Positions 1-9,152 of a DNA stretch of 9,328 bases are shown piece by piece (the stretch's first letter is position 1; every line of letters begins with the position of its first letter). The position numbers were made by a program, and so were the translations under genes. The notes under the pieces are model-generated. The model searched no databases, was not told the origin of the DNA, and was given only the letters and a program-made list of their open reading frames with translations. Location: NCBI GenBank assembly GCA_003697105.1, contig RFFQ01000103.1:1-9328 (forward strand), written 5' to 3'. The stretch is from Gemmatimonadota bacterium. Its GTDB lineage: Bacteria > 4572-55 > J002.

Positions 1-253
1 CCTAAATAATTTATTGTCTGATAAAATACCAATCAAATTTAAAACCCGATGAATTTGCCCAGTCAACAGAATTTAAATTCAATAAACTGGTAGCCACCAA
101 ACCGGTTTAATACGGTTAGCCTTTGTTGAAAAAGGTTGATTCCGCGCCTCGGAACATCTATAATGCACCGGTCCCAATCGATTCGGTTCTCCAGTAATGG
201 GGGTGGGGCAGAATAATCCTTCATTTTTTAGAACATCTTGATACGGAAAAGCC
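1..253. other. Upstream non-coding region with two perfect palindromes
   Basis: No credible coding region is visible here on either strand. The stretch is AT-rich at its left end. It contains a perfect 12-bp palindrome GAATTTAAATTC (69-80) and a perfect 10-bp palindrome AAACCGGTTT (99-108), both upstream of the promoter at 136-164. They could be operator sites or chance. A weak purine stretch GGAAAAG (245-251) sits only 2 nt from the ATG at 254, so the ribosome binding site of the first gene is poor. Confidence 0.5.
136..164 (+). promoter_or_regulatory. Sigma70-type promoter for the ProRS-like gene
   Basis: A -35 box TTGATT (136-141, 4 of 6 consensus bases) and a perfect -10 box TATAAT (159-164) are separated by exactly 17 bp. 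Transcription would begin near 171, giving a leader of about 83 nt before the ATG at 254. No other promoter of this quality is visible upstream of the gene. The leader shows no recognisable riboswitch. This is a sequence match only; the assignment to a housekeeping sigma factor is inferred. Confidence 0.65.
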
Positions 254-1906
254 ATGCGTTGGACTCAATCTGCTATCCAGACTCAAAACACCGTTCCGGG
301 GGACGTAAATGTAACGTCGCTTGCTTTGCTCCTCCAAGGAGGTTTCCTCGACCTGTATGCCAGCGGGTTCTTTCACTATTTGCCCCTTGGTCAACGGATG
401 CTTCAAAATCTGATCACCACTTTCAAAGCCAAATTGGCACTGTTAAACGGGCAAGAATTCATTCTTTCACCCCTTATCTGGGATATGAACGGGTTGCACG
501 ATACGGGGATGCCGCGGTTTACCGTTTCTGACCAGCATGACCGGTATTTTTCCCTGCCAGATTCACATCTGGTTGAATTTATAAAACTGGCGACGAAACG
601 ATTACGAAGCTATCGGGATTTGCCGCAGGTGTGGTACCAAATTCAGCCCCATTTTATTGATTGGGCAAAACCCAAATCCGGTTTGGTGCAGAGCCGTGCC
701 TATTGGCTCGGGGAAGTGTATCTCTTTAGCCCTAATGAATCTACCCGGCGAGAACTGGCAGATCATCTCAAAATGTTCCATCTACAATGGTTTCAACAGT
801 GTGGCATTCCGGTAATTCAGACCAAAACGGGCGATTTCCTGCTCTCTCCCACTGGCGAACAACGGGTGGTCGGTTGTGCCAACTGCGGGTATTATGCAGA
901 TCAACAAATTGCCCCAACCGTTGCAAAATCGTATCCTAGCGGAGATATGGAGACCACAGCTAAAAACGTGCATACACCAAACAAGCGCACCATTGGCGAA
1001 GTATCAGCTTTTCTGGGGATTCCGGCACACCGGTTCATCAAAACCTTGCTGTTTATGGTTGATGAGACGCCGCACTTGGTACTGATCCGGGGGGATCATG
1101 ATGCCAGCGAACCCAAGTTAAGAGAGCATTTTGGCGATGCCCATCTCCGCACGGCGACGGCAACTGAAATTGAACAGATATTAAAAACGCCGGTTGGTTT
1201 TTTGGGACCTCAAGGGCGCACCGGCATTCCCATTACGGCGGATATAGCGCTAAAGGGAGCGGTTGGGATGGTCACCGGTGCGAATATCGATCAATATCAT
1301 ACTATTGGGCTTACTGTGGGACAGGATTTCCCAGTGGATCGGTGGGCGGATGTGCGTTTGGCACAGGAAGGGGATGGCTGCCCACAGTGTTCACAACCGG
1401 TAGCATCGTACCGCGCAATCCAGTTGGTACACCGGCGCGAAATCATCCGTACATCCGCCACATTTCAGGATGCCAACGGTGTGGATCAGCCACTTCAAGT
1501 GAGTATGAGCCATCTTTTTTTGGAGCGCCTCATCGCGGCGCTCATTGAGGTCAATCATGATGATGATGGCATCTGTTTTCCCCCGCTTGCGGCACCGTTC
1601 GCCGTCATAATTTTACCGTTAAATATGGCAGATGACGCCACCCGAAATGTCGCGGAAGACCTGTACCGGCAGTGCCAGCAACGGGGTATTTCCGTCTTAA
1701 TGGATGACCGGGATGCCCATCCCGGGGTGAAATTCAAAGATGCCGACCGGATCGGTTGCCCCTACCGGCTCGTGATCGGTCGCCGGGGATTGAAAAATAA
1801 CACCGTTGAAATTCAAATTCGTCGCACTCAGGCGAAAATGAGCATTCCGTATGATCAGGTGATGGATCAGCTTACTCAATTGCTTTCAACGGATTCATCA
1901 GCATAG
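254..1906 (+). CDS. Prolyl-tRNA synthetase-like protein with degenerate catalytic core and intact editing and anticodon domains
   Basis: The 550-residue product aligns end to end with bacterial-type ProRS (about 570 residues), and its first residues (MRWTQ) match the usual family start. Seen: synthetase core about 1-220, INS/YbaK-type editing insertion about 235-385, rest of the core about 386-445, anticodon-binding domain 447-550. The editing domain keeps the conserved Lys (KTLL, K263), the GPQGRTGIP loop and TGANID. The anticodon domain keeps DDRDAHPGVKF (484-494). Two CxxC pairs (208/211, 376/379) match those of many ProRS. The catalytic signatures are lost: the proline-binding GPTHEE is PDSHLV (102-107), motif 2 FRDE is FIDW (134-137), the GGSxSHEF segment is deleted after KTG (191-193), and motif 3 GxGxTR is HLFLER (420-425). 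The frame is open throughout, so this is not simple decay. It probably cannot activate proline; a tRNA-Pro binding or trans-editing role is inferred. A true proS should exist elsewhere in the genome. Confidence 0.85.
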   Translation: MRWTQSAIQTQNTVPGDVNVTSLALLLQGGFLDLYASGFFHYLPLGQRMLQNLITTFKAKLALLNGQEFILSPLIWDMNGLHDTGMPRFTVSDQHDRYFSLPDSHLVEFIKLATKRLRSYRDLPQVWYQIQPHFIDWAKPKSGLVQSRAYWLGEVYLFSPNESTRRELADHLKMFHLQWFQQCGIPVIQTKTGDFLLSPTGEQRVVGCANCGYYADQQIAPTVAKSYPSGDMETTAKNVHTPNKRTIGEVSAFLGIPAHRFIKTLLFMVDETPHLVLIRGDHDASEPKLREHFGDAHLRTATATEIEQILKTPVGFLGPQGRTGIPITADIALKGAVGMVTGANIDQYHTIGLTVGQDFPVDRWADVRLAQEGDGCPQCSQPVASYRAIQLVHRREIIRTSATFQDANGVDQPLQVSMSHLFLERLIAALIEVNHDDDGICFPPLAAPFAVIILPLNMADDATRNVAEDLYRQCQQRGISVLMDDRDAHPGVKFKDADRIGCPYRLVIGRRGLKNNTVEIQIRRTQAKMSIPYDQVMDQLTQLLSTDSSA

Positions 1907-6355: not shown

Positions 6356-6391
6356 TGTACACTGCTAACTGTAAACGGCTAAGAGGTGATT

Positions 6392-7102
6392 ATGATCTTA
6401 CCAAATGAGTTGTTATGGATCGGTTTTTTACTGATGGATTTTACCATCGCACTGCTGGTTTACCGGTTTTTCAAAAAAGAAGGGCTGTTCTTACTGATTG
6501 TTGCCAATATCGTACTCTGCAATTTGCAAGTACTAAAAATGGTGGAGCTATTCGGCATTACGGTTTCGTTGGGGAACATCCTTTATGGTAGTATATTTTT
6601 CGCCACAGATTTGCTAGGGGAGGTTTACGGTAAAAAAGAGGCTCGCCGGGGTGTCACTTTTGGTTTTTTGACATTGTTTTATATGACAATCATCATGCAA
6701 GTCACGTTGTTGTTTCAACCTGCCGAAGCAGATTTTGCTCATGAATCCATGACGGTACTTTTTGGATTTGTACCGCGCATTGCTATTGCCAGTTTAATAG
6801 CGTACTATCTGAGCCAAATGCATGATGTGTGGGCGTTCCACTTTTGGAAGATCAAAACTGAGGGGAAATATCTCTGGTTGCGGAACAATGCCTCTACGCT
6901 GGTTTCGCAGGCGATTGATAGCACAATTTTTGTGTTTATCGCCTTTTGGGGTGTGTTTGATTTGACCGTTTTTTGGCAGATATTGATTACCACGTACTTA
7001 ATGAAAGTGGTCGTTGCCGCTATTGATACTCCATTTTTGTACCTAGCAAAACGCTTTGCTGAACCGGAAGAACCCCTCAAGGTGGTCCCATCCGTCTCTT
7101 GA
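6392..7102 (+). CDS. yhhQ: YhhQ/Vut_1-family queuosine precursor transporter
   Basis: This 236-residue membrane protein belongs to the COG1738 (VUT/YhhQ) family, whose E. coli member imports preQ0/preQ1 for queuosine synthesis in tRNA. Six or so membrane spans are visible. Family signatures include GNILYGSIFFATDLLGEVYG (61-80) followed by KKEARRGV, a second conserved stretch around RIAIASLIAYYLSQ (129-142), DVWAFHFWK, then LRNNASTLVSQAIDSTIF (163-180). The ATG at 6392 is preferred over the GTG at 6386, because AAGAGG (6381-6386) is a well-spaced ribosome binding site for the ATG and abuts the GTG. No strong promoter is visible in the 145 nt after dapB, so readthrough from dapB is possible. 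A strong terminator follows at 7185. The substrate is assigned by family and not proven here. Confidence 0.88.
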   Translation: MILPNELLWIGFLLMDFTIALLVYRFFKKEGLFLLIVANIVLCNLQVLKMVELFGITVSLGNILYGSIFFATDLLGEVYGKKEARRGVTFGFLTLFYMTIIMQVTLLFQPAEADFAHESMTVLFGFVPRIAIASLIAYYLSQMHDVWAFHFWKIKTEGKYLWLRNNASTLVSQAIDSTIFVFIAFWGVFDLTVFWQILITTYLMKVVVAAIDTPFLYLAKRFAEPEEPLKVVPSVS

Positions 7103-8518: not shown

Positions 8519-9066
8519 ATGAAACAGATTCAAAGTATCATCCGAAAAACGCTCCAGTACATACCCTACCGGAAACCTTTGCTTCTCAATGAAGCCGTAA
8601 ACTTTGAAAAGCAATGTATTTTCATTGCCATACCTAAAACAGGCACAACCTCTGTCCGATCCCAGTTAGCGCAAAAAGGTACTCCCCTAATCGAAAATCC
8701 TCACCTTAATATCATACAAGTCCGGGATTCCCTGTATGTTTATCTGTTGAAACAAGCCCTTGGACACAACGAGACGTTCCCTTCTAAATCCGTTCCTTCA
8801 GATACAGAACTTCGCTTGCAAGCCAAGATATTTTTACCACGTTTTTTAAATTTGCGGCGGTACGAAATCCTTGGGCAAGAGCGGTATCGTTGTATGCAAG
8901 ACGTGAAGGCGTAAGAACAAGCCTTAAAATTTCATTTGAAGAATTCTGCAAAAATCACATGTTTGCCAGTGACACCTGCCGGCACCCGACATTGCACCAT
9001 AACCAGTTTGATTGGTTATGTGATGAGCAGGGACAATGTCTGATGGACTATGTTTATAAAATCTGA
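8519..9066 (+). pseudogene. Frameshifted PAPS-dependent sulfotransferase-like gene
   Basis: The first frame (8519-8914) gives residues with the 5'-phosphosulfate-binding motif IPKTGTTS (38-45) but then loses similarity. The -1 frame carries the rest of the family: DIFTTFFKFAAVRNPWARAV with the 3'-phosphate-binding RNPW, then SLY, SFEEFCKNHMF, HPTLHHNQFDWLCDEQG and MDYVYKI before a stop at 9064-9066. A single lost base near 8825 (GCCAAG from an earlier GCCAAAG) would restore a continuous reading. After the stop, GAAAAC in one frame and CTGGAAAAGTGG in another recall the ENLEKW continuation of this family, so more small indels may follow. Intact homologues transfer sulfate from PAPS to carbohydrates or other acceptors. 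The ribosome binding site is weak. A sequencing error is possible, but the clustering of breaks favours a pseudogene. Confidence 0.72.
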
Positions 9067-9152
9067 AAACTCTGGAAAAGTGGTTTTTTATTGATTTATG
9101 GTGCCCTTTTGAGTATGAACCCTATTTTGTATTTTTGATGAGGATGTTGATT
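9067..9152. other. Decayed 3' tail of the sulfotransferase region
   Basis: No independent gene is seen in this short stretch. The frame starting at 9063 (LKTLEKWFFIDLW) is open and continues into the downstream reading frame. Its first residues look like remnants of the sulfotransferase C-terminal half, after which similarity to that family fades. Confidence 0.4.

Follow-up and report, generated by a model that had tools for sequence, protein, structure and literature searches.

Synthetase-derived factors that edit mischarged tRNA in trans are already known as a kind, with archaeal ThrRS-ed and the YbaK and ProXp proteins of the INS superfamily as examples. ThrRS-ed, a freestanding Ser-tRNA-Thr hydrolase, carries an editing and an anticodon-binding domain, has dropped the catalytic domain, and works beside a second synthetase that charges without editing. 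Regulators derived from aminoacyl-tRNA synthetases (aaRSs) exist as well; HisZ, for instance, is the regulator of an enzyme and has no editing domain. The INS editing domain of Escherichia coli prolyl-tRNA synthetase (ProRS) does not itself recognize tRNA-Pro: it is the anticodon domain that confers specificity, by way of G35 and G36, and altering the acceptor stem does not affect editing (PMC3973320; review PMC11295145). Its residue K279 is important for editing (PMC3973320). Members of the INS superfamily other than the ProRS domain are single-domain proteins (2024 review, PMC11295145); short extensions occur in plant ProXp-ala and trypanosome MCP3, and fusions of ProXp-ala to an active ProRS exist (PMC11286415). 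As whole enzymes, ProRS and PheRS recapture mischarged tRNA after its release into solution and edit it, and a ThrRS mutant with no synthetic activity still trans-edits in full (PMC4787780). Here we describe P0001, the product of a gene in a 9,328-nucleotide stretch of DNA, hereafter the window, which is the entire contig RFFQ01000103.1 (C173) of a 4.18-Mb Gemmatimonadota draft genome, 96.85% complete. From this one gene in one draft genome, we conclude that P0001 is probably a displaced bacterial-type ProRS that has been kept as a dedicated trans-editing factor ('ProRS-ed').

Judged by alignment and by predicted fold, P0001 is a bacterial-type (family II) ProRS by descent. Solved bacterial ProRSs align with it over the whole length (Enterococcus faecalis 2J3L, residues 3–548, E 3.5e-78), and the AlphaFold2 model of P0001, built from a 62-sequence alignment, adopts the ProRS fold throughout (mean predicted local distance difference test score, pLDDT, 91.5; predicted template-modelling score, pTM, 0.87), with 2J3L as the top PDB matches at template-modelling (TM) scores of 0.90–0.91. 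The domain order, INS active site, CxxC pairs, and anticodon domain are likewise those of family II enzymes with INS, and Pfam matches to the class II synthetase core (33.6 bits), tRNA_edit (71.8 bits), and HGTP_anticodon (72.3 bits) all exceed their cut-offs. The NCBIfam matches are also to family II ProRS, but they fall below the curated cut-offs (TIGR00409, 274.6 against 306.7 bits; NF006625, 350.9 against 558 bits), so that P0001 does not score as an active family II ProRS.

The difference lies in the synthetase site. We compared 16 residues, 12 from the synthetase site and four from the editing site, with those of E. coli ProRS (NC_000913) and 64 canonical sequences from the sampled genomes, a set then enlarged by 80 sequences from named genomes to 145 other family II ProRSs in total. 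In P0001, 11 of the 12 synthetase-site residues are replaced or deleted. The substitutions (E. coli numbering) are T109S, E111L, E112V, K138H, R140I, E142W, R144K, R151Q, K158G, and D159E, all at positions that are practically invariant in E. coli ProRS and the 64 canonical sequences, and both F415 and the GGSxSHEF block are deleted. Across all 16 residues, 143 of the 145 other enzymes have no change and two have one each, compared with 11 in P0001. An earlier note on this DNA had read the motif 2 Arg and Glu as Ile and Trp, TxE as SxL, and GGSxSHEF as deleted, and the alignment with the E. coli enzyme bears it out on each. The note had also taken motif 3 GxGxTR to be HLFLER; the motif is indeed lost (GCYGIGVTR of E. 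coli reads SMSHLFLER), but its Arg is kept (E. coli R450, P0001 R425) and is the sole remnant of an active site otherwise made up of the motif 2 Arg and Glu, TxE, GGSxSHEF, and motif 3 GxGxxR. The motif residues are not merely present at shifted positions, as the alignment is continuous and the predicted fold is that of ProRS throughout. On the aligned residues the synthetase site is destroyed, and formation of prolyl-adenylate would, from class II synthetase chemistry, be very unlikely, because the ATP- and proline-binding elements have been lost together. R144, also lost, is the motif 2 Arg that reads the acceptor stem during charging.

The editing and tRNA-binding parts, by contrast, are kept, as the note had proposed. 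All four editing residues tested are retained (T241, K263, D330, and H349, corresponding to E. coli T257, K279, D350, and H369), positions that matter for editing by the E. coli enzyme. The GxxxP loop (GFLGP, G315–P319), GANID, and DDRDAHPGVKF of the anticodon domain are retained too. P0001 thus has the PF04073 match, the catalytic Lys, and the GxxxP loop that characterize the INS superfamily. The open reading frame of 550 codons begins with ATG and contains no internal stop, in agreement with the note.

The strongest evidence that the editing and anticodon parts are being kept is the contrast between domains. Conservation among canonical ProRSs peaks in the catalytic domain (58% mean pairwise identity, compared with 40% for INS and 42% for the anticodon domain), and in P0001 this order is reversed. 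The catalytic domain of P0001 has a mean identity to canonical sequences of 0.291, whereas canonical pairs average 0.583 (rank 0 of 145, the lowest), while INS (0.377 compared with 0.399; rank 35 of 145) and the anticodon domain (0.397 compared with 0.416; rank 36 of 145) are ordinary. P0001 keeps 29 of 64 invariant catalytic sites, 10 of 10 in INS, and 12 of 13 in the anticodon domain (Fisher p 1.3e-5). The end branch of P0001 measures 6.86 in a catalytic-domain tree (median 0.40, next longest 2.61) and 1.44 in a tree of the editing and anticodon domains (median 0.75), where several canonical rows are longer. The latter tree does not fix where P0001 belongs in family II; it is as compatible with vertical descent as with horizontal transfer.

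Proline charging is covered elsewhere in the genome, because contig C183 encodes an intact family I (archaeal/eukaryal-type) ProRS (TIGR00408, 544.9 bits; cut-off 437). This enzyme has the full motif set, and of 150 residues that do not vary among nine other family I enzymes it retains 140; it has no INS domain, and the only PF04073 (INS-type) domain in the genome is that of P0001. The search for another proS that the note had called for thus supports its reading, but its term 'paralogue' is loose, as the active enzyme belongs to the other ProRS family and is not a duplicate of the P0001 gene. The genome has three tRNA-Pro genes (UGG, CGG, GGG), all with C1:G72, A73, G35, and G36. The tRNA-Pro(UGG) gene (L222, 1498–1576, minus strand) differs from the other two: it is 79 nucleotides long, its D-loop region is enlarged, and its anticodon lies at position 37.

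How such a protein might work can be proposed from known enzymes. Since INS owes its specificity to the anticodon domain, editing would require INS and the anticodon domain on a spacing scaffold, and it is exactly these parts that P0001 keeps. In the history that we infer, the family I ProRS took over charging and the old family II enzyme was displaced. The family I ProRS would at times load Ala, or another small amino acid, onto tRNA-Pro; the P0001 anticodon domain would hold the released tRNA by anticodon G35 and G36; its CCA end would be placed in the INS pocket; and the wrong amino acid would be hydrolysed by Lys263 and the GxxxP loop. The catalytic domain, though dead, would serve as the scaffold that spaces INS and the anticodon domain, and probably also as a dimer interface. 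Given the recapture of tRNA by whole ProRS and PheRS and the trans-editing by dead ThrRS, the most probable substrate for hydrolysis by P0001 is Ala-tRNA-Pro that the family I ProRS has produced, perhaps together with tRNA-Pro carrying other small amino acids. With somewhat less confidence, we think it likely that P0001 represents a new class of quality-control factor in translation: a synthetase fossil, still full-length, that reads the anticodon in order to edit mischarged tRNA-Pro in trans, and that arose once charging had passed to a family I ProRS, leaving the proofreading half alone under selection.

None of the closest known systems matches P0001 in full. Architecturally and by analogy it resembles ThrRS-ed in having an editing and an anticodon-binding domain, no working synthetase site, and a separate charging enzyme without editing, but it belongs to another amino acid system, the folds of the two editing domains are unrelated, and P0001 retains a dead catalytic domain that is predicted to fold. 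With ProXp-ala, YbaK, and other INS-superfamily trans-editors it shares the editing fold, catalytic Lys, and GxxxP loop, and would share action on mischarged tRNA-Pro beside an INS-less ProRS; those proteins, however, find tRNA by the acceptor stem or a partner, and P0001, at 550 residues, is no single-domain protein but carries a catalytic-like core and a ProRS anticodon domain. Like HisZ and other synthetase-derived proteins that do not charge, it has an aaRS fold without charging, but no enzyme partner of the HisZ kind is present at P0001. Anabaena apo-T1 ThrRS is likewise a whole synthetase without synthetic activity that acts solely in trans-editing for another synthetase of the same amino acid, but there the loss is conditional (zinc) and reversible, whereas in P0001 it is fixed in the sequence (PMC4787780). 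A review of duplicated synthetases includes no ProRS of this type, and the ProRSx that it describes still charges (PMC9437257). Our literature search, which left most subscription journals outside its scope, found no paper naming an inactive or pseudo-ProRS with retained INS.

Of the three jobs that the note had proposed, trans-editing of mischarged tRNA-Pro is clearly the best supported, because conservation is normal in the editing residues and the anticodon domain but not in the synthetase site. The conserved anticodon domain, and the precedent of aaRS-derived regulators, would also suit a tRNA-Pro sensor or regulator (or a chaperone or storage factor) that acts independently of hydrolysis and keeps INS as a structural or binding element. 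A pure binder, however, needs none of Lys263, Thr241, Asp330, His349, and the GxxxP loop, yet all are conserved, and the Pfam matches in the window include no regulatory domain or telling neighbour; we give this reading an outside chance. Slightly less probable still is a remodelled catalytic domain with a new enzymatic role, such as another ligase or tRNA modification, for which INS and the anticodon domain would handle the substrate. This idea is compatible with a catalytic domain that is predicted to fold with high confidence and in which 29 of the 64 invariant sites remain, the motif 3 Arg among them, but the joint loss of the motif 2 Arg and Glu, TxE, and SHEF makes class II adenylation unlikely, and the catalytic branch is very long with no sister to reveal a conserved new site.

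Two further explanations would deny P0001 any function or reality. A recently displaced gene in early decay, a functionless pseudogene in progress, might have lost its synthetase site in a genome with another ProRS, and a sister genome (G001) has no family II ProRS; nevertheless, all 550 codons are open and codon usage is normal (relative synonymous codon usage correlation 0.73, within the 0.56–0.87 of neighbouring and other-contig genes). Moreover, neutral decay cannot yield this domain pattern, in which the catalytic branch is very long but the rate of evolution of INS and the anticodon domain is that of canonical enzymes, and we consider early decay a slim prospect. Contamination, misbinning, or sequencing errors that mimic active-site loss seem scarcely credible. 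The source is a draft genome in which the window makes up a complete contig of 9.3 kb, and a sulfotransferase-like gene near its end looks frameshifted, but the contig belongs to this genome: its tetranucleotide profile correlates at 0.945 with the other contigs, compared with at most 0.766 for 66 foreign loci, and it carries the genome's sole dapB match. Nor are eleven clean replacements in one frame explicable by sequencing error. In a dapB comparison, the window did not group with G001, which is of the same class.

Several observations weigh against a trans-editing role. The specificity of P0001 (Ala, Cys, Ser, or other) is suggested by pocket residues only, and the canonical set behind the domain contrast was picked partly by similarity to P0001. 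In a sample of 386 genomes, family I ProRS was matched in 115 (in 112 of them above the cut-off), and among the 80 of these that are at least 90% complete, 29 have an INS-type domain and 51 have none, so an INS editor is not indispensable beside family I ProRS. G001, the sole relative compared, has a family I ProRS but neither a family II ProRS nor PF04073, and appears to be without INS-type editing. No orthologue turned up when 84,980 species genomes were scanned with P0001, in a collection that represents the phylum by two genomes only, and the sole ground for long-term maintenance of P0001 is the domain contrast. The matches listed in an alignment-based scan were canonical ProRSs only, all 80 motif-checked, the best at about 35–37% identity; viral contigs scanned for orthologues had none, and a second survey centred on G103, mostly of the same sample, added nothing new.

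Eight other sampled genomes combine a family I match (only partial in one) with a strong family II match, and every tested catalytic residue is intact in all eight family II enzymes; seven (G053, G112, G249, G377, G256, G304, and G327) have family I ProRS over the cut-off. The sample thus yielded no further case like P0001. Apparent multi-domain INS proteins in family I genomes were rejected, the long PF04073 frames being GC-rich frames around ordinary small ProXp-like domains.

If P0001 is indeed a trans-editing factor, nature would have supplied a separation-of-function mutant of ProRS, in which evolution has removed charging and kept editing, a direct demonstration that tRNA-Pro proofreading is selected in its own right after replacement of the charging enzyme, and a second, independent case of the ThrRS-ed solution. 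It would also offer a ready enzyme for asking how anticodon recognition some 70 angstroms away licenses INS hydrolysis, with no aminoacylation to confuse the assay. Genes like it would be annotated as proline--tRNA ligase, a warning for annotation. The positions of the gene and its parts are given in Table 1.

Table 1. Features of the P0001 gene in the window (residue numbers are those of P0001).
Feature	Position	Strand	Basis
Promoter-like TTGATT-17-TATAAT, upstream of gene	136..164	+	Within chance expectation
Pseudo-synthetase gene (P0001, putative 'ProRS-ed'), 550 aa	254..1906 (stop codon included)	+	TIGR00409 274.6 bits, below cut-off 306.7
Degenerate class II catalytic domain, N-terminal half (residues 1-200)	254..853	+	Catalytic identity 29% compared with 58% canonical; 29/64 invariant sites kept
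TxE to SxL (residues 104-106)	563..571	+	Alignment to canonical ProRSs
Motif 2 region (residues 127-148), FRDE..RPRFG to FIDW..KPKSG	632..697	+	Alignment to canonical ProRSs
GGSxSHEF deletion site (residues 193-195)	830..838	+	Alignment to canonical ProRSs
First CxxC pair flanking INS (C208, C211), conserved	875..886	+	Cys in 98% of canonical set
INS editing domain (residues 236-360), intact, with Lys263, GFLGP, His349	959..1333	+	PF04073 above cut-off; 10/10 invariant sites kept
Catalytic editing lysine codon K263 (E. coli K279)	1040..1042	+	Alignment to E. coli ProRS
Second CxxC pair (C376, C379), conserved	1379..1390	+	Alignment
Degenerate catalytic domain, C-terminal half (residues 385-446)	1406..1591	+	Alignment, domain identity
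Motif 3 region, GxGxxR lost, reads VSMSHLFLER, only final Arg425 kept	1499..1528	+	Alignment
Anticodon-binding domain (residues 447-545), intact, DDRDAHPGVKFKDAD	1592..1888	+	PF03129 72.3 bits; 12/13 invariant sites kept

The two CxxC pairs around INS (C208/C211 and C376/C379) occur in P0001 and in 98% of the first canonical set, and E. coli ProRS is without them; they likely form a zinc site. Directly downstream of the P0001 gene (1920–4358, plus strand) lies a gene for a secreted beta-propeller of the two-component-regulator type (Reg_prop) with a C-terminal FlgD_ig/CHU_C-like sorting domain. The sulfotransferase-like gene (8519–9070, plus strand), with the start IAIPKTGTTSVRSQL, has a stop at 8914, after which bases in another frame seem to carry the protein on, suggesting either a frameshift in the gene or an error in the assembly; a Pfam search with its first part gave zero matches. 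A queuosine precursor transporter is encoded at 6386–7102 on the plus strand (TIGR00697, 214.9 bits).
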